This document shows positions 6,242 through 50,749 of a stretch of 64,000 nucleotides of DNA, in pieces. The translations under genes were made by a program, and so were the position numbers. Below the pieces are notes generated by a model. It was not told the DNA's origin and did no database searches. It worked only from the letters and a program-made list of their open reading frames with translations. Source of the stretch: Candidatus Sulfopaludibacter sp. SbA3 (GTDB lineage: Bacteria; Acidobacteriota; Terriglobia; Bryobacterales; Bryobacteraceae); NCBI GenBank assembly GCA_945890485.1, contig CAMDCN010000001.1, positions 310,001 through 374,000 on the forward strand, in the 5' to 3' direction. How positions within the stretch are numbered: position 1 is the first letter of the stretch; every line of letters begins with the position of its first letter.

Positions 6242-7630
6242 ATGATCCGAATTTTCCGAGTGTTCTTTCCCGCCAGTGTCCTTGCGCTTTTGATCTCGGA
6301 AGCGGCGTTGATTCTCTTTTGCCTCGTTCTCGTATCGCTCTGGGTCAACGACCTCGATCCCGAATTTTATCTGGTAGAGCAGGGCGGACTGATGCGCATG
6401 TCTTTTGTTGTGATGAGCATGCTCGCCGGCCTGTATTTTCAGGATCTGTACAACAACTTGCGGGTGAGGAGCCGATTGCTGCTTGTGCAGCAACTCTCCA
6501 TGGCGATTGGGATCAGTTTTCTGTTTCAGGCCTTATTGACTTACCTCGACCCGGAGCTGATGCTTCCCCGATGGGTAATGATCTACGGGGCCCTTCTCAT
6601 GTTGATCCTGCTTCCGGCTTGGCGCTTGGCATTTCTGCGCTTGGCGCTTTCCGCGCTTGGGCAGGTAAAAATTCTATTCGTGGGCGGATCCACTGTCTTG
6701 GTGGAAATCGCCGAAAGGGTTGCCGCTCGTCCGGAGTTGGGATTACAGGTCGTCGGATACCTGGAAGACAGCGAAGGCCAACCGTTTGGCGCTGCGATTC
6801 CGAAACTTGGCCGCATCGATGATGTGAGCGCCGTGGCCGCCGAAGTGAAACCAGACCGAATTGTTGTGGGGATGTCGGAGCGTCGCACGCGAATGCCCGT
6901 TTATGACCTGCTGGATCTGAGACTCTCAGGAATCCTCGTCGTCGAAGCCTCTGCGCTTTATGAATCGACTTTCGGCCGGGTGTCCACTCGGGACCTTCGC
7001 CCATCTCAATTGATCTTTTCGAGCGAACTCGGCCCGGCGCCGGGAAGCGTAGCCATTCAGGCGATTTACTCGTGGTTGCTCGCACTCGTTGGCCTCATTC
7101 TGCTGTCGCCCATCATGTTGGTAGTGGCTATTTTGGTCCGATTGACCTCCAAAGGCCCAATCCTGCATCGGCAAACGCGCGTCGGATTAAATGACGCGCC
7201 ATTCACGGTGCTCAAATTCCGTTCGATGTACGCAGATGCCGAAGCGCGGACCGGAGCAGTCTGGGCAAAGAAAAACGATCCCCGGATCACGCCGATTGGC
7301 AAGTACCTCCGGCTATTCCGGTTGGATGAACTGCCGCAGTTCATCAATGTCTTGAAGGGGGAAATGAGTTTCGTCGGCCCGCGGCCGGAGCGCCCGGAGT
7401 TCGTCAAAGCCCTTTCGGAAAAAATTCCGTTCTATCGGCAGAGGCACTTCGTCAAGCCCGGGATCACCGGCTGGGCCCAGATCAATCACAAGTATGGGGA
7501 CACGGTCGAGGATACGATCACGAAATTGGAGTACGATCTGTACTACATCAAGCACATCTCGCCCTCTCTGGACGTCTACATTGTCCTGAACACGCTGAAG
7601 ACGGTCGTCCTTGGCCGCGGGGCACAGTAG
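6242..7630 (+). CDS. Polyprenyl-phosphate sugar transferase (exopolysaccharide initiating enzyme, EpsB/WbaP-like)
   Basis: This is a 462-residue membrane protein. About four N-terminal transmembrane helices lie in residues 1-130. A Rossmann-like CoA-binding-type domain follows ('VKILFVGGSTVLVEIAERV' near 142). The C-terminal bacterial sugar transferase domain spans about 265-462: one hydrophobic segment, 'TVLKFRSMYADAE', 'RLFRLDELPQFINVLKGEMS', 'FVGPRPERPEF' and 'FVKPGITGWAQI'. Such enzymes move a sugar-1-phosphate from a nucleotide sugar to undecaprenyl phosphate, the first step of exopolysaccharide or O-antigen assembly. The domain order fits the polyprenyl glycosylphosphotransferase family found in PEP-CTERM/EPS clusters. 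The sugar is unknown. Confidence 0.92.
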   Translation: MIRIFRVFFPASVLALLISEAALILFCLVLVSLWVNDLDPEFYLVEQGGLMRMSFVVMSMLAGLYFQDLYNNLRVRSRLLLVQQLSMAIGISFLFQALLTYLDPELMLPRWVMIYGALLMLILLPAWRLAFLRLALSALGQVKILFVGGSTVLVEIAERVAARPELGLQVVGYLEDSEGQPFGAAIPKLGRIDDVSAVAAEVKPDRIVVGMSERRTRMPVYDLLDLRLSGILVVEASALYESTFGRVSTRDLRPSQLIFSSELGPAPGSVAIQAIYSWLLALVGLILLSPIMLVVAILVRLTSKGPILHRQTRVGLNDAPFTVLKFRSMYADAEARTGAVWAKKNDPRITPIGKYLRLFRLDELPQFINVLKGEMSFVGPRPERPEFVKALSEKIPFYRQRHFVKPGITGWAQINHKYGDTVEDTITKLEYDLYYIKHISPSLDVYIVLNTLKTVVLGRGAQ

Positions 7631-32885: not shown

Positions 32886-35294
32886 ATGTTCCGCAATTTA
32901 CTTCCGGCGCTCGTATTGACCGTCCTGACCACGGGCGGCGCGGGGGCCCAAGACGATGTGCAAGAGCAGGGGCGCGGGGTCGCTCGCGTGAGCCTGATCT
33001 CCGGAGACGTGTCCGTCCGCCGGGGTGATACGAACGAATGGGTGGCGGCCGCCATCAACGCACCGCTGATGACCGAGGACCGCGTGCTGACGGCTGCGGG
33101 ATCGCGGACGGAGGTGCAGTTCGACGCGAGTAACTTCGCGCGGCTGGCCGACGGAGCGGAGTTACGTTTGGCCGATATTGAGAACCGGCGCTACCTGGTC
33201 CGGCTAGCATCGGGAACGATGACTTGGCGCGTGTTGCGCGACCGGACGGCGGAGGTCGAAATTTCGACTCCGAGCATTTCGGTTCGGCCGATGAAGAAAG
33301 GGATCTACCGGGTGACGGTGCTTGGCGATGGCTCTACGGAGGTGACGGTACGCAGCGGCGAAGCGGAGATCTTCACGCCGCAAGGGACGGAGCGGCTGCG
33401 GAGCGGCAAGACCTTACTCGCTCGCGGAGAGGCTTCGTCGCCGGAGTTCCGCAGCGACAACGCGATTCCGATGGATGACTTTGACCGTTGGAGCCAGAGC
33501 CGCGACCGCGACCTGGAGCGCAGCCAAGGCTACCGATACGTCAGCCGGGACGTTTACGGCGTGGAGGATCTGGACGGCCATGGGCGGTGGGTGAACACTC
33601 CGGAGTATGGGCAGGTGTGGGTGCCGCAGACGAGCGCCGGCTGGGCGCCGTACCGGAACGGCCGTTGGAGTTGGATGGATTATTACGGTTGGTCGTGGGT
33701 GAGCTACGACCCGTGGGGCTGGGCTCCGTATCACTATGGCCGCTGGTTTAACCAGGTGGGCATCGGGTGGTGCTGGTGGCCGGGCCGGATGAACACGCGC
33801 CACTATTGGAGCCCGGCGCTGGTGGGCTTCTTTGGTTGGGGCGGGGGACGGGGTCTGAACGTGGGCATCGGCGTCGGGTTTGGCAACTGGGGTTGGGTTC
33901 CGCTGGCTCCGTTTGAGCGTTATAGCCCGTGGTACGGGCGTGGCTACTACGGCGGTTACCGCAACGCGGGTTATGTCAACAACAGCGTGAACATCACCAA
34001 TATCAACGTCACCAATGTGTACCGGAATGCGCGGTTTAACGACGGAGTGACCGTGATCAACGGCCAGGATTTTGGCCGCGGATCGGTGAAACATATCCGC
34101 TACGACCGGAACCAATTGAACAACGCTTCGTTCGTCCGGGGCCAACTGCCCGCGACGCCGGGACGGGAGAGCCTGCGGTGGAGCGACCGGGCCGTGAATA
34201 CGCAGCCGGGGGCTTCGCGGGGCGATGACCGCTTCTTCAGCCGGTCGCAGCCTTCACGGATTGACCGGGTTCCTTTTGAGAATCAACGCGCGGCGATGCA
34301 GGATGTTTCCCGGCGAACGTTTGGCGGCGAGAATGGTGCCAATGCGACCGGACGAGGAGGCGAGTTCCGGGGCACCGTCAGCCGGGGCGACAACCCTGCG
34401 GGTGGCGGCAATATCATGGAACGCGGTGGCGCGCGGGCCGAACAGCCTGCAGGCCGCGGCGATGCGGGCGGCGGGGCGACCCGAGCGGACTTTGCCGGGG
34501 GCGGCGCGAATACGCGGGGCGAGGTGAACCGCGGCGGCGACACCGGAAGTTGGCGGCGGTTCGGCGATACAGGCGCGGCCGGCGCCGGCGCCTCTCGCGC
34601 TGACTTCAATCAGGGCGGGCAGGCGGCTGGTGCCGGGGCGGCGACCCGTGGCGAAATCAACCGGGGCGGCGACACGGGCGGCTGGCGGCGGTTCGGCGAT
34701 GCGGGCACCCGCAGCGATACCTCCGGCGGATCTGGCGCGACTTCGCGTGGTGATATGAATCGGGGCAGCGATAATAGCGGCTGGCGGCGCTTTGGCGATG
34801 CGGGCGGTTCTCGTGGTTCGACCGGAAGCTCGGGCGCAACCTCGCGGGGCGAAGTAAACCGTGGCGGAGACTCGGGCGGATGGAACCGGCTGGGGGGTAC
34901 GTCGCGGGGGGATATGAGCGGCGGCGCGACCTCGCGTAGCAGCGACGGTTGGAACCGGTCCGGCAGTTCGCGGAGCGGAGGCAGCTCGTCGCCGACCATT
35001 CCGGATCGCGGCAGCCGTGACCGGGGCAGCTTCGGAAGCTCGATCGAAAGGAACGGCGGCGGCATGCGGTCGACGATTCCAGATCGCGGTAGCCGTGGCG
35101 GCGGTTTCGGCGGCGGCCGGATGAGTGGTCCCGTAGTGCGGGAACGCTCGTCGGGCGGCGGCGGCAGCATCGGAGGGATGTCCCGCGGTGGTGGAGGCGG
35201 TAGTGTACGCGGCGGCGATTCCGGTGGTGGTTCGCGTGGGGGTGGTGGAGGCAGCGTTGGCCGCTCTGGTGGCGGCGGCGGTAGAAACAAGTAA
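32886..35294 (+). CDS. Large secreted FecR-domain protein with Trp-rich and Gly/Arg/Ser repeat regions
   Basis: This is an 802-residue exported protein. The signal peptide is MFRNLLPALVLTVLTTGGAGA. A FecR-type beta domain covers about 30-175 ('RVSLISGDVSVRRGDTNEWV'). A Trp/Tyr-rich segment covers about 205-330 ('NGRWSWMDYYGWSWVSYDPW', of the DUF6600 type), then an Asn-rich part. From about 440 to the end it is a low-complexity Gly/Arg/Ser tail with partly regular 33-residue repeats ('NRGGDTGGWRRFGDAG'). A GGAGG Shine-Dalgarno sequence at 32873-32877 sets the start. No anti-sigma membrane helix or sigma factor is nearby, so an envelope or surface role is more likely than signalling. Confidence 0.85.
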   Translation: MFRNLLPALVLTVLTTGGAGAQDDVQEQGRGVARVSLISGDVSVRRGDTNEWVAAAINAPLMTEDRVLTAAGSRTEVQFDASNFARLADGAELRLADIENRRYLVRLASGTMTWRVLRDRTAEVEISTPSISVRPMKKGIYRVTVLGDGSTEVTVRSGEAEIFTPQGTERLRSGKTLLARGEASSPEFRSDNAIPMDDFDRWSQSRDRDLERSQGYRYVSRDVYGVEDLDGHGRWVNTPEYGQVWVPQTSAGWAPYRNGRWSWMDYYGWSWVSYDPWGWAPYHYGRWFNQVGIGWCWWPGRMNTRHYWSPALVGFFGWGGGRGLNVGIGVGFGNWGWVPLAPFERYSPWYGRGYYGGYRNAGYVNNSVNITNINVTNVYRNARFNDGVTVINGQDFGRGSVKHIRYDRNQLNNASFVRGQLPATPGRESLRWSDRAVNTQPGASRGDDRFFSRSQPSRIDRVPFENQRAAMQDVSRRTFGGENGANATGRGGEFRGTVSRGDNPAGGGNIMERGGARAEQPAGRGDAGGGATRADFAGGGANTRGEVNRGGDTGSWRRFGDTGAAGAGASRADFNQGGQAAGAGAATRGEINRGGDTGGWRRFGDAGTRSDTSGGSGATSRGDMNRGSDNSGWRRFGDAGGSRGSTGSSGATSRGEVNRGGDSGGWNRLGGTSRGDMSGGATSRSSDGWNRSGSSRSGGSSSPTIPDRGSRDRGSFGSSIERNGGGMRSTIPDRGSRGGGFGGGRMSGPVVRERSSGGGGSIGGMSRGGGGGSVRGGDSGGGSRGGGGGSVGRSGGGGGRNK
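34515..34965 (+). repeat. Degenerate 99-bp tandem repeats encoding R-G-[DE]-x-N-R-G units
   Basis: Copies of a unit reading 'RGE(V/I)NRGGDTGGWRRFGD' start at 34515, 34647, 34746 and 34845, with a decayed copy near 34908. The last three intact steps are exactly 99 bp apart. The repeat lies in frame in the FecR-domain protein gene. Confidence 0.75.
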
Positions 35295-35416: not shown

Positions 35417-36103
35417 TTGCGCATTTCTGTCATCATTCCCACCCTCAACGAGGCGGTCGCTCTGCCTGCGATCTTGGCGGCTCTCGAACGAGTTGACGGG
35501 TTGGCGGAGGTCATCGTGGCCGATGGCGGTAGTGAAGACGGAACACCGGGCTTGGCGATAACGAGAGCCATCCTCGTCACGTCGGTGGCGGGCCGGGGCC
35601 AGCAGCAGGCCGCCGGTGCGGCCATGGCCACGGGCGAGGTCTTCTGGTTTCTCCATGCGGATTGCACCCCGGCGCCGGAGTCGTCGCGGGCGATTCAAGA
35701 GGCGTTGGCTGACCCGGCGGTCGGCGGCGGGCATTTTTCACTTCGCTTCGGCGGCGATGGCCGCGGCGCACGGATGTTGACGCGAATTTATCCTTGGCTG
35801 CGCTGTCTGGGGCTTTGCTACGGCGATTCCGGCATCTTCGTCCGGCGCGAGGTCTATGAGGCCGCCGGTGGCTTCCGGCCCATGCCCCTGTTCGAGGACG
35901 TCGACCTGGTTCGGCGGTTGCGGCGGTTGCGGCGGTTCCGCCGGCTGGATTGCACCTTGACGGCCTCGGCGAGACGATTTGAGCATCGCAATTTTGCCGG
36001 GATGTTCGCGCAGTGGACCGGACTGCAGATTTTATATTGGCTAGGTGTTTCGCCTGGTTGGCTGGCGCGGCGGTACGCGTTGGTAAGGGAGCGTTCGCGA
36101 TGA
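35417..36103 (+). CDS. TIGR04283-type glycosyltransferase family 2
   Basis: This is a 228-residue GT2 enzyme: 'ISVIIPTLNEAVALPAILAA', 'EVIVADGGSEDGT', 'VFWFLHADCTP' (DxD-like) and 'GDSGIFVRREVYEAAGGF' with 'PLFEDVDLVRRL'. This is the TIGR04283 pattern, often found beside selenium- or rSAM-related genes, though none is here. The start is TTG at 35417, since no ATG or GTG fits the conserved N-terminus. An arginine-rich stretch at about residues 170-180 comes from short tandem TTGCGGCGG repeats. The next gene overlaps its stop as ATGA. Confidence 0.87.
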   Translation: MRISVIIPTLNEAVALPAILAALERVDGLAEVIVADGGSEDGTPGLAITRAILVTSVAGRGQQQAAGAAMATGEVFWFLHADCTPAPESSRAIQEALADPAVGGGHFSLRFGGDGRGARMLTRIYPWLRCLGLCYGDSGIFVRREVYEAAGGFRPMPLFEDVDLVRRLRRLRRFRRLDCTLTASARRFEHRNFAGMFAQWTGLQILYWLGVSPGWLARRYALVRERSR

Positions 36104-45011: not shown

Positions 45012-46629
45012 CCGCCAGTTTGATGCCGGGCTTGGGATCGCGGCTCAACAACTGTTGCAAGCCTCGTTCGGCCCGGTCCATCGCTGGAAATTCCTCAAGA
45101 GCGATGCGATACGCCTTTTCGGCTTCCTTACGCTTGCCGGCTTTCGCGGCGGCATCGGCCAATGCCACAGCAACGGGTCGGGGATAGTAGGGCGGCTCGT
45201 TGTAGCGCAGGGAACGTTCCGCCATCGAAACGTCAGAGAGAATCTTAAGTCCCCGCGACACTTTGCCGGAGGCGAAAGTGATCTGTCCGTGCAATTCTTG
45301 TTCAGCGACGCCCAGCTCTTTCGGGTACTTGGCCTTGTTCTTTGCCTCGAAGTCCAAAAGTGCGGCGCGCATTCCGCTCGCTTCGATGCGTGCCTTCTCC
45401 ACATCGCCTTTGGCGACGTAAGCGAGGGCTCGAGCCCAGTGCGTCCAGGCCTGCTCTCGGGGTTTGGCGATCACGGGTAACGTAGCTGGGTCGAGCAGAG
45501 CATCCCAGCGTTCTCCCCAGACCAGGGTCCGCATCAAAGCGAACCAGCCTTGACGGTAGGCCGTCCGGGCGTTGTCGAGTTGTTTGGCTTCGGCCTCGGA
45601 CTCCTTGAAAGTCAGCAGTTCACGAGCGGAGACCAACGCTTCGTCGTAATGGCCGGCTGCGGCCTGGACAACCGCAAGATAGTGGATGTTGTGGCCGTGA
45701 TGAAGATTGCCGTAGCCAGGATCGGCCTTCATGTAGGCGCGTTCCAAATTGCCCGCTGTCACAAAACTGGTCGCGGCTTCTTTCAGCTTGCCGGTTTGGG
45801 AGTAAATATGACCCGGCATGTGTAGCGCGTGCGGAATTTCCGGCACCAGAGCGGCGTACTGCTCGCAACTTGCCCATGCATCTTTGGCAAAGGACGATCC
45901 TTCCCATCCGTGGATAACATAGTGGTGAACTCCGGGATGATTCGGAGCTCGGACGGCGAGCTCTTTCAAGATGCGCACCGCTTCCATCGATCCGGGACGG
46001 GGCTGCCGATTCGGGGTGAGAAACCCGTCCATCAGATGGAGCGCTAGGTAGGTCGGGGCCTCTATTTCATCCGGGTATTTAGCAATAATCTCGCGTAGTC
46101 CGGCAACATATGCCGCGTCGGCGGCCGCGTCATCGAGCGGATATTGACGTCGAGCGGCAATCGCGTCGATATAAGCGCGCTCCCGATCCGACCCGTTCTT
46201 GGCTAGAGCCTTGGCCTTCTGTGCGGCGTCCAAAGCACGCTGCAATGGCGGCGTCATCCCTTTGGGCGCGGCATTTTTGTCGCGGATCAATTGAAAATGG
46301 GGACGGTAGTCGCCGGCGGCGACCATCGCCACTCCCCACCAGGGCATCGGCGCGTCCGGGTCCAGAGCAGCCGCTTGTAAGAAGCTGCGCTCTGCCTCCC
46401 GGGCCCAAAAGGAATGCATCTGGGCGACACCTTGATCAAAGAACTTCTGTGCTTCGGCGCTTCGAGTAGTAATCGGAAAAGGCGACGAGCCCTGCCCAGT
46501 CATTAACTTAGCAGGCAGGGCGGGAGCGCCATTCGATGGAACAACGCAGTGGCTGGGAGTGGCGGTCTGCGCGTGCAGACTGAACAGCATCGAAAAGCCG
46601 ACGAAAAGGTTGGCGCGCATACGAACCAT
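44995..46629 (-). CDS. Secreted TPR-repeat protein
   Basis: This is a 544-residue protein from the ATG at 46629, chosen for a GAGGG ribosome site 6 nt upstream. A signal peptide (ANLFVGFSMLFSLHAQT) leads into tetratricopeptide-like helices: 'AQKFFDQGVAQMHSFWAREA', 'ALDPDAPMPWWGVAMVAAGD', 'HPGVHHYVIHGWEGSSFAKD', 'AGNLERAYMKADPGYGNLHH'. The HxxH-type clusters ('HALHMPGHIYSQTGK', 'HHGHNIHYLAV') recur in this environmental family but have no assigned chemistry. It overlaps the FAD reductase gene by 17 bp. Confidence 0.8.
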   Translation of the reverse strand: MVRMRANLFVGFSMLFSLHAQTATPSHCVVPSNGAPALPAKLMTGQGSSPFPITTRSAEAQKFFDQGVAQMHSFWAREAERSFLQAAALDPDAPMPWWGVAMVAAGDYRPHFQLIRDKNAAPKGMTPPLQRALDAAQKAKALAKNGSDRERAYIDAIAARRQYPLDDAAADAAYVAGLREIIAKYPDEIEAPTYLALHLMDGFLTPNRQPRPGSMEAVRILKELAVRAPNHPGVHHYVIHGWEGSSFAKDAWASCEQYAALVPEIPHALHMPGHIYSQTGKLKEAATSFVTAGNLERAYMKADPGYGNLHHGHNIHYLAVVQAAAGHYDEALVSARELLTFKESEAEAKQLDNARTAYRQGWFALMRTLVWGERWDALLDPATLPVIAKPREQAWTHWARALAYVAKGDVEKARIEASGMRAALLDFEAKNKAKYPKELGVAEQELHGQITFASGKVSRGLKILSDVSMAERSLRYNEPPYYPRPVAVALADAAAKAGKRKEAEKAYRIALEEFPAMDRAERGLQQLLSRDPKPGIKLADGGLE

Positions 46630-46667
46630 ACTACGCCCTCGCAGGTGCAAAGGAAACTGAGGCCCAA

Positions 46668-47204
46668 CTACGAGTTTTGCTGCTGCGCGAGATAGGTCTC
46701 CCGAAGGCTAAACTCAAAATGCTGGACAACGTCGATCAGGCCGGAAATATCAGCAGGCTGCCAGCCGCAAGCGTGGATGAAGAGCTGGCAATGAGCGCGC
46801 CAAATCGACTTGCGGAACTGCCATTCCAAGCGGAGCAGGGTCTCCACGTGGTCGGATTGGTCCTCGGTGGCGTGCAGAATAGCCTGCTTGGCGCCAAAGC
46901 TTAGCCGGCGAAAGTCAGCCTGGAGGTCTTGCAGATATAAGCGGAAGAGTTGCCGCCGCTCAGCCCGAAACTTTCTAATAGAGCCGTTGGCCCCTAAGTT
47001 TTGGCGCTGCAGGAAGGCATCGTCGGTTCCGCTCAGCAGGCGACGCATGGGCAGATAACGAAAAGCCGAGAAATTCTCGAACCACTCGGGGTCAAACCCG
47101 GCGTTAGCTCGCGAGTTTTGATCTGTCCGGGCATAAAGCCGATACAGAAGTGCTACAAAAACGATACTCCCAACGACACCAATCAGAACCGGGAACAAAA
47201 TCAT
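46668..47204 (-). CDS. Membrane-anchored protein of unknown function
   Basis: This is a 178-residue protein with one N-terminal transmembrane helix (MILFPVLIGVVGSIVFVALL). A helical, charged cytoplasmic-type domain follows ('RKFRAERRQLFRLYLQDLQA', 'LLRLEWQFRKSIWRAHCQLF'). The start at 47204 puts the anchor at the very N-terminus, behind a GAGGTGG Shine-Dalgarno-like sequence; an upstream in-frame start would add 45 residues. Similar small anchored proteins are frequent in Acidobacteriota. No function can be assigned. Confidence 0.7.
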   Translation of the reverse strand: MILFPVLIGVVGSIVFVALLYRLYARTDQNSRANAGFDPEWFENFSAFRYLPMRRLLSGTDDAFLQRQNLGANGSIRKFRAERRQLFRLYLQDLQADFRRLSFGAKQAILHATEDQSDHVETLLRLEWQFRKSIWRAHCQLFIHACGWQPADISGLIDVVQHFEFSLRETYLAQQQNS

Positions 47205-47374
47205 AACCGTATCCACCTCAAGCCTCGGTAGGCGAACCGTCTGACGAGCGGCGTCGTCGAACCGTAATTCGCCCTGAGTTGGAACACTCCCGTTCAGGCA
47301 CTTTCTAGCAAGTGTAAAGCCAACCGCGAGGGAAAGCAACGGGCGTTTTTCGGATTATCTCAAGAATATTTGAA

Positions 47375-48154
47375 TCACTTTACGACACGCAGCAGGGCCC
47401 GGTTTAGCGCTTCCAATTGGGCGAAAATCCAACCGCTTTCAGCGGTGCTGGGAGAATCCTCCTTCCTGGCGGCCTCGCCGGCTGGCTGCAATAAGACCGC
47501 CCACGCCACGAGACAAAGAGCGCCCATCGCCATAATGCAGTGATTCACCTGATCGGTGACCTCTTTGCCCGTCAGGTTGCGATAGAGATGGGCAACCGTC
47601 ATCAACAGGAAGAACACGAACGCCAAGGTTGTGTGCAAGATCGTATTCCGGGACGTCGGGACCGGAAACCAAGTCAAAATCGCGGTGAGCAACAAGAGGA
47701 ATAAGGTCAAACCCCCCGTTACCACCCGATGGGCAGCCGTGACGTACAGGATGGGAACCGCGCCAGCGTGGTTGATGGAATGAAGGTCGGGCTGGACGGT
47801 GGCCACGGACAGAACTATCGAGCCGATCATTCCATAAAGCAGAACCTGTTGGCCGACCCGGGCAATTCCGCGGAATCTCGCTAGTGACTTCGCGTGGATT
47901 TCACGGACCATGACGATGTAGAAGATCCATAGGACCGGCTGCAACACCAGAAAAAAGAGCGCCTGCATATTGGACTTCAATCGAAAGCCCGCTACGGTTA
48001 AGGCGACTCCGCAAAGGCACTCCGCCACCAGGTAGGCAACAAAGCCTTTGTATGCGGGAGCGAGGCCCCGTCTCCAGAGCAGCAGCGCAAGCGTTCCGGC
48101 ACCAAGGCTGGTTCCCAAGCTAAGCCATAAATCGAGTGCAAAATAAGCAGGCAT
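47375..48154 (-). CDS. Seven-helix integral membrane protein of unknown function
   Basis: This is a 259-residue protein with about seven transmembrane helices, starting 'YFALDLWLSLGTSLGAGTLA'. A charged C-terminal tail follows ('AARKEDSPSTAESGWIFAQL'). This matches a family common in Solibacter-like genomes but without known function. It has no catalytic motif that I recognise. It lies 170 bp upstream of the anchored protein gene on the same strand, which may form a loose unit with it. Confidence 0.72.
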   Translation of the reverse strand: MPAYFALDLWLSLGTSLGAGTLALLLWRRGLAPAYKGFVAYLVAECLCGVALTVAGFRLKSNMQALFFLVLQPVLWIFYIVMVREIHAKSLARFRGIARVGQQVLLYGMIGSIVLSVATVQPDLHSINHAGAVPILYVTAAHRVVTGGLTLFLLLLTAILTWFPVPTSRNTILHTTLAFVFFLLMTVAHLYRNLTGKEVTDQVNHCIMAMGALCLVAWAVLLQPAGEAARKEDSPSTAESGWIFAQLEALNRALLRVVK

Positions 48155-48304
48155 GCGGGGCCGGGAAATGGACCTAAACGGAGTGTACCATTACTACCAC
48201 CGCGGAACGGAAGGGAATCGGAAGCGACCGCGATCACATCCAGCATGCCTGCCAAACAATCTGAAGACGACCGATGGCACGCCCTCAGACCAAAATTGGT
48301 GGAC

Positions 48305-49081
48305 TTACGCGGCAAGGCTTTCGCGCAGAACGGCTAGGCGATCGAAAGAATTACGCACGCGGCTACCCAAAGCCAACTTGGTCGATTCATCGACCAGCTG
48401 GAACTCTTCACAGGGGTAGCATTTCGGAATTGGAAGAATGTTGGCCTCGGCGAATTCGGCGCCAGCAAACGGCGGCTCTTCGCACGGATAGCACTTCGGG
48501 ATCGGAAGAATATTGGTCTCGGCTACTTCAGCGCCGGCGAATGGCGGCTCCTCGCACGGATAGCACTTCGGAATCGGAAGGATATTGCTCTCGGCGACTT
48601 CGGCTCCAGCGAATGGCGGCTCCTCGCACGGATAGCACTTCGGAATCGGAAGGATGTTAGTCTCGGCTACTTCGGCGCCGGCGAATGGCGGCTCTTCGCA
48701 GGGGTAGCACTTCGGGATCGGAAGGATGTTGGTCTCGGCGACTTCAGCGCCGGCGAATGGCGGCTCCTCGCACGGGTAGCACTTCGGGATCGGAAGGATA
48801 TTGGCCTCGGCGACTTCAGCGCCGGCGAATGGCGGCTCCTCGCACGGATAGCACTTCGGAATCGGAAGAATGTTGGCCTCGGCTACTTCAGCGCCGGCGA
48901 ACGGCGGCTCCTCGCACGGATAGCACTTCGGAATCGGAAGGATATTGGTCTCGACGACTTCGGCGCCGGCGAATGGAGGCTCTTCACAGGGGTAACACTT
49001 CGGAATTGGTAGAATCTCTTGGGCGTTAAGAGATACGGCGCCAATAAAAGCGAGAATGGCAGATAGAATAAAGCTTTTCAT
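48305..49081 (-). CDS. Secreted protein of nine 24-residue CYPC repeats
   Basis: This is a 258-residue protein. A signal peptide (MKSFILSAILAFIGAVSLNA) is followed by eight full copies and one half copy of a 24-residue unit starting ILPIPKCYPCEEPPFAG and ending AEVAE-[T/A/S]-N (residues 23-226). It closes with a 32-residue tail that looks helical (from 'FQLVDESTKLALG'). Each unit carries one C-Y-P-C pair, so there are 18 cysteines in all. The DNA copies differ mostly at synonymous sites, which points to selection on the peptide. Two readings fit: an exported metal- or thiol-binding repeat protein, or a precursor cut into several peptides. I do not recognise this family. The start is chosen to give the signal peptide. 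Confidence 0.8.
   Translation of the reverse strand: MKSFILSAILAFIGAVSLNAQEILPIPKCYPCEEPPFAGAEVVETNILPIPKCYPCEEPPFAGAEVAEANILPIPKCYPCEEPPFAGAEVAEANILPIPKCYPCEEPPFAGAEVAETNILPIPKCYPCEEPPFAGAEVAETNILPIPKCYPCEEPPFAGAEVAESNILPIPKCYPCEEPPFAGAEVAETNILPIPKCYPCEEPPFAGAEFAEANILPIPKCYPCEEFQLVDESTKLALGSRVRNSFDRLAVLRESLAA
48404..49015 (-). repeat. Tandem array of 72-bp coding repeats
   Basis: Units begin at 48404, 48476, 48548, 48620, 48692, 48764, 48836, 48908 and 48980 (the last about 36 bp), with an exact 72-bp period and no spacers. The array stays in frame in the CYPC protein. Differences between units are mainly third-codon changes. Confidence 0.95.
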
Positions 49082-49483
49082 GGGAGATATGATTCCTTTC
49101 CTGTTTCGGGATTTGGGTTTAGAGTAGAGTCCAGGGCAGTCACGCCCGCTAATCAAATTCGATACTGTAGATCGCACCGCTACAGGCTTCCCCTATGGAA
49201 CGGGGAGCCATGGATCCGGAAGTACTAGTAGATCTATCCGACAAGCTCCACTATTTGTGGTAGGTGCCGATGATCCGACTACAACTCCTTGCAGTTTCTT
49301 GCGATGAAGCGAGTTTAGACCGAATAGGACTCCTAGGAAGAAAGCCCTAGACTCTTTCGGAATCTAGAACAGGGACTAGTCAAAATTTGGAACCGGAGTG
49401 GTTGCCGCCGGCCGGGGAGTGGACCGGAATTTGAAATCACGCAATTGGTGCTAAACGATAAGAAATAAGGTAGACTAAGGTCG
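49082..49483. other. Intergenic region between divergent CYPC-repeat and unknown-ORF genes
   Basis: No open frame looks coding. A weak AAAGGA ribosome-site-like stretch lies upstream of the repeat gene on the minus strand, and a GGGC/GCCC inverted pair lies at about 49134-49147. Promoters for both divergent genes must be here, but no strong -35/-10 pair could be named. Confidence 0.4.
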
Positions 49484-49497
49484 AGGTTCGCGAACCT
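49484..49497 (+). promoter_or_regulatory. 14-bp perfect palindrome abutting a start codon
   Basis: AGGTTCGCGAACCT is a perfect dyad ending one base before the ATG at 49498. It could be an operator or could fold in the mRNA and cover the ribosome site. The neighbouring HTH-S24-like regulator is a candidate ligand, but this is speculation. Confidence 0.5.
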
Positions 49498-49956
49498 ATG
49501 CGTGTAGCCCGGCCCAAGAGCTTGCTTGAACGTGATGCCCGGGAGGACCTCTGGCTCCACACGCTCTCGCAGATCCCTACGCAATTCGGAAAACTGCAGT
49601 ATTTGTCATCTCTCAGAGATCCAAATACCGGGACCTACGAGCACCATGGGCTTTCGTTGCTATTCGGCGAGAAAGAAGCAACCAAGGCGATGCGCCAAAA
49701 CCACAAACGCATCTTCGTTGAATGGTTAAACCTGGACTTGGCGAGTCAACAGGCAGATTTGACTGAGTACCTAGCCTCCGTCGGCGGACCAATGCCGGAT
49801 ATCCTTGCTTCGTGGGAACTTCTCGAACCCTGGAAACAATACATACCTGCCGGGGTCATGGCCTCGGAAAAGGCGCTCTATTCAGCGGACTTGAGGACGC
49901 TGGTTAGCCTGTTGCAGACCCGTTGCGCCGCCGGCGCCCCTGGTCGAGGCGCATAG
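49498..49956 (+). CDS. Conserved unknown protein of acidobacterial type
   Basis: This is a 152-residue soluble protein ('EDLWLHTLSQIPTQFGKLQY', 'LASLRDPNTGTYEHHGLSLL'-like centre, 'HKRIFVEWLNLDLASQQADL'). I recall similar proteins from Acidobacteriota, with the same 'DLWxxTLxQIP' and 'YEHHGL' features, but none of known function. The 3' end overlaps the convergent regulator gene by about 50 bp. A palindrome sits directly before the ATG, and no separate Shine-Dalgarno sequence is visible. It is typical of one-gene units with a regulator beside them. Confidence 0.7.
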   Translation: MRVARPKSLLERDAREDLWLHTLSQIPTQFGKLQYLSSLRDPNTGTYEHHGLSLLFGEKEATKAMRQNHKRIFVEWLNLDLASQQADLTEYLASVGGPMPDILASWELLEPWKQYIPAGVMASEKALYSADLRTLVSLLQTRCAAGAPGRGA

Positions 49957-50749
49957 CCACTCCCGTAACCTGGCCGATTACGTCGATCTCGTCCGGAAAA
50001 AGAAAGACTTGGGGATTGCACATCGAGGCCGGATGTGGCTGCAACACCAGGCGATTTCCGTCCAGATTGCACCATCCGCATGCGTAGCCTTCGCGGTGCT
50101 CCAGGAAATAGATCGGCCGGTCAAACTCATTTGTCCAGCCTGATGAAACAATCTTCCTCTTTGTTTCATCCAGAAGCAGCAAGGAGCCTGGCTGCAAAAG
50201 TGGGTACATCGACCAGTCTTCCGACCCAACGAACGCATAGCGATGAGTCTTCAAGTCCAGTCCGTGCAACAACATCAACGGCAGTTTTCCCCACCGTTGA
50301 ATCATGCGGCTCAGGTAGGTGGTCTTGGTCAGGTCCAGGCCCGGATCCAAAGCCAGCGGCAGCAGCACATCGCCGTGGTTGTGCGGCTGGAAATTGATAG
50401 CGTGCGTCTTTTCGAGCTCAATCGACGCAGCGTCCGCAGGCAGGTGCGAGAGGTCCACCCCGTACCACTGCAGAACTTCCAAGACGTCGAGCCGATAGAT
50501 TGTACAAAGTGTGTAGAGCCGGAAAACTGTAGGGACGGTCCCCTTGTTTTCAATGTCCGAGAGGCGCGATAGCGCTACGATGAACTCGTCATTCTGATGC
50601 CGCTCCGCAATCCGAAGGCTGGCATCTTCAACGTCCCGATACCGCAAATTGAGACGTTCCCTTACCCGCTTTAATTTCTGTCCAGCTTCCTCCATGATTT
50701 GACCGTTCCCGGCTAGACCAGGAAGTACCCGAATCGGGCGGTTAGACAT
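49904..50749 (-). CDS. XRE-type HTH regulator with S24-like domain lacking the catalytic lysine
   Basis: This is a 281-residue protein. Residues 20-90 form an XRE-type helix-turn-helix ('GQKLKRVRERLNLRYRDVED', 'ALSRLSDIENKGTVPTVFRL'). The C-terminal part resembles LexA/CI-type S24 domains: 'FVGSEDWSMYPLLQPGSLLL' has S180 at the nucleophile position. At the spacing expected for the lysine base (about residue 217) there is 'FLEHREGYACGW', without lysine. It is therefore probably a sensor or binding domain, not a self-cleaving protease. GAAGGGAG precedes the ATG, so the long form starting MSNRPIRV was kept. Palindromes lie upstream. Confidence 0.8.
   Translation of the reverse strand: MSNRPIRVLPGLAGNGQIMEEAGQKLKRVRERLNLRYRDVEDASLRIAERHQNDEFIVALSRLSDIENKGTVPTVFRLYTLCTIYRLDVLEVLQWYGVDLSHLPADAASIELEKTHAINFQPHNHGDVLLPLALDPGLDLTKTTYLSRMIQRWGKLPLMLLHGLDLKTHRYAFVGSEDWSMYPLLQPGSLLLLDETKRKIVSSGWTNEFDRPIYFLEHREGYACGWCNLDGNRLVLQPHPASMCNPQVFLFPDEIDVIGQVTGVAMRLDQGRRRRNGSATG

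Follow-up and report, generated by a model that had tools for sequence, protein, structure and literature searches.

A 64,000-nucleotide stretch of contig CAMDCN010000001.1 from Candidatus Sulfopaludibacter sp. SbA3 (hereafter the window) carries on its minus strand, at 48305..49081, a gene for a 258-residue exported protein that is largely made of near-identical units around a CYPC motif. We report here that this repeat protein is a member of a wide group of tiny exported peptides in Acidobacteriota, usually encoded just upstream of a gene for a seven-helix membrane protein (TM7; 259 residues, 47375..48154, minus strand in the window). Judged from sequence, the arrangement looks like that of a peptide signal next to its receptor. 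The repeat itself, selection on its units, the class-wide linkage to TM7, the recurrence of multi-unit precursors, the seven-helix model and the more conserved inner face of TM7 are directly supported, and the roles of ligand and receptor are the reading that we weigh against them.

A precursor whose units are held by selection

The precursor reading frame runs from an ATG at 49081 to a stop at 48305-48307. Its first 20 residues, MKSFILSAILAFIGAVSLNA (49022..49081, minus strand), followed by Q, look signal-peptide-like as read from the sequence alone. Eight full units of 72 bp or 24 residues, ILPIPKCYPCEEPPFAGAEVxExN (48440..49015), precede a ninth, half unit, ILPIPKCYPCEE (48404..48439), and a non-repeated C-terminal tail of 32 residues after the ninth core (48308..48403), all on the minus strand. 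The cores start at residues 23, 47, 71, 95, 119, 143, 167, 191 and 215, a spacing of always 24, and Tandem Repeats Finder reports 8.2 copies of 72 bp with 0% indels and 89% matches (score 879). All 18 cysteines lie within CYPC. This reading of frame and repeats bears out the coordinates, strand, signal peptide and eight-and-a-half-unit structure given in an earlier note made from the letters of the window, and its remark that no family with this unit was known agrees with our searches: the sole Pfam match was DUF6229 (E 0.088) and the sole NCBIfam match an ATP-grasp RiPP target (ribosomally synthesised and post-translationally modified peptide; E 1.7), both under the curated cut-offs.

Among the eight full units, 19 of the 24 codons vary, 16 of them at synonymous sites only. 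The residues that do change are 20 (V/F, with F replacing V in unit 8), 21 (A/V) and 23 (T/A/S), so that peptide changes are indeed confined to a few positions, which number three and not the four or so that had been proposed. Between units the mean proportion of synonymous differences (pS) is 0.426 and that of nonsynonymous differences (pN) 0.024, a ratio of 0.057 and thus far below 1; the 10-residue core in seven other congeners likewise has a pN of 0 to 0.066 against a pS of 0.13 to 0.81 within arrays. Silent sites have drifted while the peptide sequence of the unit was held, as the earlier note had suspected. Six neighbouring genes differ at silent sites by 0.585 to 0.735 between the window and G009, a close relative, and because pS between units falls below this, the window units are probably younger than the split of the two species, or were homogenised.

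A search of 101 genomes, the window genome (G000) included, followed by individual reading of the loci, found relatives of the precursor in 12 of the 18 congeners, and also in G035, which belongs to a different genus (g18); matches of low E value in further genera form a mixed set. The unit sequences of congeners include IIPVPNCYPCDDPPVTVASAQ, ILPVPDCWPCADDSRNTVAVASPK, ILPVPECWPCDDVRTVASSK and LLPVPDCFPCIEEDKGGSLTLASTK, and the longer unit of G010, G016 and G017 has an additional motif, GLPKCYPIC or GLPKCYPNC. With rare exceptions (CWLC once in G003, CLPC once in G012), the core P-[IVL]-P-x-C-[YFWG]-P-C is kept, and the spacer between cores varies in length and sequence across species while being near-identical inside each array. 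Immediately before each following core the arrays usually have K, R, Q or N. Unit number varies between species, a check that the earlier note had called for. In 8/8 contigs of the window genus (g1) and g18 that span the region, among them one (L037) where the precursor was seen by reading the locus, the gene occupies one orthologous locus in the order UbiX, a helix-turn-helix (HTH) regulator, a 152-residue protein, precursor, TM7 and a protein with one transmembrane helix (1-TM); UbiX, PheA and TPR (tetratricopeptide repeat) are labels that we presume for the flanking genes. The assemblies of G001, G006, G009, G012 and G015 end inside the precursor gene (contig ends L025/L038, L026, L027/L040, L028 and L032/L039), so that unit numbers there are minima and public metagenome-assembled genomes (MAGs) will under-report the gene. 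Four congeners (G007, G011, G013 and G014), two of them 95% complete, have neither a precursor match (E below 0.1) nor a TM7 match, and a joint loss of both genes is possible.

Exported peptides beside TM7 across the class

Exact 8-residue core patterns had no match in the genome-contig collection, and a degenerate core scan gave 10 loci, on MAG contigs of Acidobacteria, Acidobacteriales or Bryobacterales. Viral contigs had no exact core match either, which leaves a viral origin unsupported in a scan that did not extend to plasmid and phage records. In a search with a DNA pattern that encodes P[ILVM]PxC[YFW-like]PC, 67/200 genomes of the family (presumably Bryobacteraceae, going by the names of those contigs) gave a match, and the reversed-pattern control gave 10 matches in 9 genomes among the matches listed. 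We examined 40 pattern regions, of which 15 were dropped (mostly with the core outside any open reading frame with a signal peptide, two without the scripted motif); one of these, L145, has TM7 together with a different repeat. The other 25 entered the neighbour count, L128 among them being a chance match. Twenty of the 24 true family loci are single-unit precursors of 36 to 53 residues and four have two or three units; peptides found from TM7 in a further family set had one unit per precursor in 15/15 cases. The CxPC core, whose absence from relatives had been put forward as grounds for doubt, is kept in most peptides of the family. One single-unit example, MKRFAIALILALQFGAIANVATA followed by EIPFPQCWPCPDDVR, stands within a row of near-identical genes. 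Such rows can take the place of precursors with several units: at L115, L118, L122, L124, L125, L127, L209, L210 and L307, two to four small precursor genes of almost the same sequence follow one another some 135-240 bp apart. The C-terminal residue is Lys or Arg at 16/20 single-unit loci and in 11/15 peptides of the further set (a count by eye in which loci with mixed ends score as no). The earlier note had offered, as its alternative, a precursor cut into several identical peptides; relatives whose mature part is a single unit favour this, and cleavage itself stays a presumption from sequence.

A TM7 homologue directly follows the peptide gene in 21 of the 25 loci, which gives the conserved partner that the earlier note had suggested looking for. 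The median distance from the peptide gene down to TM7 is 116 nt. Profile matches to TM7 occur in 166/200 family genomes, in 77/151 genomes of a class sample and in 39/247 of a phylum sample, 13 of the last outside the class. When loci were instead taken from TM7 and the detector output judged by eye, an exported peptide gene lay upstream in 18/22 family loci (one of the 22 already found by its peptide), in 15/20 further family loci picked regardless of peptide, and, elsewhere in the class, in 31 of the 39 loci that could be assessed (40 TM7 matches from other families taken, one with too little upstream DNA). These counts weigh more than those of the fixed detector over all loci (a hydrophobic stretch, early Lys/Arg, a Pro-rich part after it and an ATG), because loci found by their peptide inflate its numbers. 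With that caution, the detector fired upstream of 88/121 TM7 genes and of 56/350 of the remaining genes at these loci (odds ratio 14, p 6e-30); when start codons other than ATG were allowed it gave 93/121 against 81/350, and without the Pro criterion 86 against 87, or 71 against 32 with ATG only. Among the Pro-rich candidates, internal tandem units were present in 30/93 beside TM7 and in 1/81 controls, although 11 of the 30 come from the window genus and g18 and are thus not all independent. The window genome itself has one clear TM7 copy and one weak relative; the latter lies outside the window at G000:C8:129053-129643 (L251, E 4.5e-7). In genus g70 (L154, L155, L159 and L162) the TM7 matches contain one stop, and the match possibly overruns the true C-terminus.

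The peptides beside TM7 in other families of the class are Pro-rich, often Cys-free and again often repeated. ADGGxPxPPxP-like peptides with two to four units occur at L192, L190, L179, L214, L194, L185, L177 and L219; L186 has DVPNPGPH x4, L243 NMPVFPTPPAVKTA x5 and L267 LAMSPASPHPVPPPA x7, and f11 has MPxPxCxPDDPNxCG-like peptides, sometimes as tandem genes. In the window family, L166 has ALNRTDDLFPCPDGDCKT x3 and L171 AYIPPPPCITDPVNPCRLE x2. Outside the class, a clear peptide lies beside TM7 in two genomes (L246 and L247) and weaker candidates in L253 and L260, and the remaining TM7 loci there gave no convincing peptide. Metal or disulfide chemistry, which the earlier note had read from the evenly spaced cysteines, finds no support as a general function, since relatives beside the same neighbour often have no CxxC pair or no cysteine at all (ADGGxPxPPxP, DVPNPGPH and NMPVFPTPPAVK types).

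TM7 and a proposed ligand-receptor pair

An AlphaFold2 model of TM7, built on a 33-sequence alignment, has seven long helices plus a further one at the C-terminus (pLDDT 85.5, pTM 0.82). At E <= 0.001 Foldseek gave no match; the highest rows of its list hold PTH1R, a viral rhodopsin and other receptors, and its lower rows are mixed with designed or unrelated helical proteins. The VIA-align ranking lists LYCHOS (13.7), the CGRP receptor (13.1), FZD7, a class T G-protein-coupled receptor (GPCR), a sweet-receptor subunit, adhesion GPCRs and bacteriorhodopsins; the absence of other families from these lists proves nothing, and we take the modelled likeness to GPCRs and rhodopsins as a lead on helix arrangement, not as homology. 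In the 33-member alignment (A2), no Pfam family matched more than one member and no NCBIfam family more than two at E <= 0.1; in the 48-member alignment (A4), no Pfam family matched more than one member, with a weak match to Fung_rhodopsin in 1/48 (E 0.0098), and a profile of the 48 sequences found no PDB chain at E <= 1. Microbial rhodopsins bind retinal through a Lys in helix 7. In neither A2 nor A4 does any column that is invariant or conserved to 90% hold a Lys.

Lys/Arg counts per loop of TM7 are 2.18, 2.12, 1.36 and 5.03 on the side taken as inner and 0.21, 0.85, 0.85 and 0.76 on the side taken as outer, which by the positive-inside reading fits a predicted N-out, C-in topology. Given that topology, conservation is 0.480 in the inner half and 0.381 in the outer; 23 of the 25 most conserved positions lie on the inner side, which holds 148/258 positions overall, and 8/257 circular shifts were as extreme. 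Between G000 and G009, pN is 0.154 for TM7 and 0.139 for the 1-TM protein, and 0.041-0.089 for the XRE, UbiX, 152-residue and TPR genes. Residues 163-170 of TM7, in the inner loop predicted to join helices 5 and 6, read FPVPTSRN and resemble the residues P-[IVL]-P with which the exported core begins; a P-V-P motif is frequent there in the family.

The reading that we favour, at somewhat short of an even chance, is that the precursor supplies many copies of a short peptide which, once exported, is the ligand of the adjacent seven-helix receptor. The precursor would leave the cytoplasm by way of its signal peptide and release 24-residue units with the PIPKCYPC core, each probably closed by a Cys-Cys disulfide; a unit would then bind the variable, presumably periplasmic, face of TM7 (a face assigned by the positive-inside reading), and TM7 may pass the signal on, by way of its better conserved cytosolic side, to the 1-TM helical partner, to the 152-residue protein with the HTH regulator, or to both, a route suggested by the linkage of the genes. 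Many units per precursor would raise the dose, and every unit would have to fit one receptor, a constraint that would account both for purifying selection on the copies and for their divergence from species to species. This reading fits best because it joins gene linkage, an exported peptide and multi-unit precursors with units that are under purifying selection and yet change fast between species, and with a seven-helix neighbour that has a more conserved inner face and faster amino-acid change. The short exported peptide expected of a pheromone-type system is represented by the signal-peptide-like precursors of 36-53 residues, whose export is predicted. That Acidobacteriota have species-specific, often multi-copy peptide precursors sensed by an adjacent GPCR-like receptor unrelated in sequence to known ones, a peptide language shared across the class and a bacterial counterpart of the fungal alpha-factor layout, is a wider claim that we regard as possible but rather doubtful.

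Several results favour a partnership inside the envelope, in which the peptide carries no message between cells and is a small regulatory subunit of TM7, a periplasmic sensor of stress or of the state of the cell wall, or a substrate that TM7 processes or transports. TM7 is present in most family genomes, as expected of a housekeeping protein; no exporter or maturation enzyme is among the genes conserved at the locus; and a co-divergence test gave no support for joint change of the peptide and the periplasmic face of TM7 (partial Mantel p 0.41), peptide distance tracking the inner and not the outer face, a correlation that may reflect phylogeny alone. This last result also speaks against the ligand-receptor reading, since a peptide pheromone and its receptor are expected to diverge together. 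The linkage of peptide and TM7 serves both readings. Near-identical arrays of diverse units (30/93) and rows of near-identical small genes, however, are easier to reconcile with a product that is released and acts by its dose than with a stoichiometric subunit, and the fold lists show receptors and rhodopsins, not transporters or proteases, which excludes nothing. We consider an envelope-internal role unlikely on balance, though the most serious of the alternatives.

In bacteriocin loci, the gene of a small exported peptide commonly precedes that of a membrane protein for immunity. The layout here matches, and the peptide is the most variable part; that the units are antimicrobial and TM7 confers immunity is nevertheless improbable, given TM7 in 166/200 family genomes and at one orthologous locus in the 8/8 spanning g1 and g18 contigs, the HTH and 152-residue genes that accompany it in other families too, and no PADLOC match at E <= 0.01 for the five window proteins of the locus. 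About as improbable is an uncut, multivalent protein that acts in metal or redox chemistry through its nine CYPC pairs, or as a surface or matrix repeat: the 18 evenly spaced cysteines and the CxPC retained in most family peptides speak for it, but the TM7-adjacent peptide is Cys-free (ADGG and PNPGPH types) or has a differently spaced pair in many relatives, and the 20/24 and 15/15 family sets have one unit and a short mature part. As for recent slippage with no selection on the sequence, tandem arrays do readily expand and shrink, and unit number does vary among congeners; a pS of 0.43 with a pN of 0.024 between units, and the same core kept with different codons in other species, leave it next to no credence, and the ratio of 0.057 rules out a recent slippage product.

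The receptor of alpha-factor systems is a seven-helix protein, the RRNPP systems of Bacillota pair a peptide, which is taken back into the cell, with an XRE-type cytosolic receptor that has a peptide-binding TPR domain behind its HTH, and Agr-type systems consist of AgrD, AgrB and AgrC. Our locus shares with the alpha-factor the presence of a seven-helix protein, there the receptor and here a neighbour; it differs in that the peptide gene adjoins the seven-helix gene and that an HTH regulator takes the place of a known G-protein pathway, and the likeness is one of layout, not a sequence comparison. With Agr it shares a small peptide gene beside a polytopic membrane protein, although none of the TM7 columns that are invariant or conserved to 90% is a Cys and no kinase family was matched, and the peptide here has a signal-peptide-like N-terminus. 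Excerpts of PMC6339444 and PMC7329392 describe fungal repeat precursors processed by KEX2 (KEPs, alpha-factor-type), which like ours are secreted precursors with one signal peptide and several near-identical units; ours is bacterial and has no dibasic site. RRNPP systems, covered in an excerpt of PMC12445099, resemble the locus in a short exported peptide encoded near an HTH regulator, but here the constant neighbour is a seven-helix protein, the phylum is different, peptides come in arrays, and Pfam lists no TPR in 22 HTH members, where a diverged TPR could be missed. Multi-core RiPP precursors such as microviridins, in the excerpt of PMC5934393, also hold several core peptides, but the conserved locus genes here include no modification enzyme, and the N-terminus is signal-peptide-like in place of a cytosolic leader.

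No paper on a peptide-seven-helix locus and no report of peptide signalling in Acidobacteriota was among the matches listed in a literature search that covered few subscription journals. The searches run on the precursor, TM7, the 1-TM protein and the 152-residue protein gave no family, solved relative or defence-system model for any of them, and no homologue with a known function, which the earlier note would have counted against itself, was found in what was searched. Because nothing of the kind was found, we regard the peptide-TM7 module, as far as sequence can tell, as new, and its function as putative. The four neighbouring proteins of the locus have no family name beyond helix-turn-helix, yet TM7 is widespread in family and class. 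Acidobacteriota are hard to study. If the peptide and TM7 are ligand and receptor, the phylum would have a system for signalling between cells with ligands that are readable from genomes and open to synthesis, and there would be a prokaryotic case of a multi-copy peptide precursor with a seven-helix sensor; even under another function, they provide many small exported peptides, with a constant neighbour through which their function can be tested.

Companion genes of the locus

Downstream of TM7 lies the gene for the 1-TM partner (46668..47204, minus strand; 178 residues from an ATG at 47204, with a longer start possible at 47339), which has one N-terminal helix, presumably a membrane anchor, and a helical domain; its structure model is confident and gave no informative fold match. 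On the other side, an intergenic region (49082..49497), presumably the control region, separates the precursor from the divergent gene for the conserved 152-residue protein (49498..49956, plus strand); a scan of 46600-49600 found no sigma-70-like promoter. The XRE-type HTH regulator of 281 residues (49904..50749, minus strand) is convergent with the 152-residue gene. Pfam HTH_31 matched 18/22 members of its family at E <= 0.1 (best 2e-7), and the Pfam scan of the 22 otherwise listed HTH families and one stray DUF. The C-terminal half of the HTH protein has a conserved block, YIGxxDWxMYPLLxPGS ... RPIYFLEHRDGYACxWC ... LQPHP, which to us recalls LexA/S24-type domains, with no Pfam S24 match listed. 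Searches of solved structures gave nothing useful for the HTH and 152-residue families, and the latter has weak SH3 matches (E 0.007 to 0.03).

At the 25 loci of the neighbour count, a 1-TM homologue adjoins TM7 in 19, and HTH and 152-residue homologues are present in 20 each; at L120 and L121 the 1-TM homologue is on the other strand, and peptide and TM7 occur together without the HTH and 152-residue genes in the stretch examined. Counted over loci of >= 4 kb with homologues at E <= 1e-5, the HTH, 152-residue and 1-TM genes are found in 8/12, 8/12 and 12/12 g1 and g18 loci (where several contigs break off within the precursor gene), in 18/21, 18/21 and 20/21 loci of the rest of the family and in 21/37, 22/37 and 11/37 loci of other families of the class; all three were found in 0/5 of the f11/extra set and 0/12 outside the class. 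Gene order varies between families, for example peptide, TM7, 1-TM-like, 152-residue and convergent HTH gene (L182 and L188-L190), so that the association is more than an unbroken ancestral order. Peptide and TM7 are thus the core of the locus, with the HTH, 152-residue and 1-TM genes as frequent companions. Three further short tandem repeats of low score lie in the window at 34622-34706, 35908-35937 and 6622-6660.
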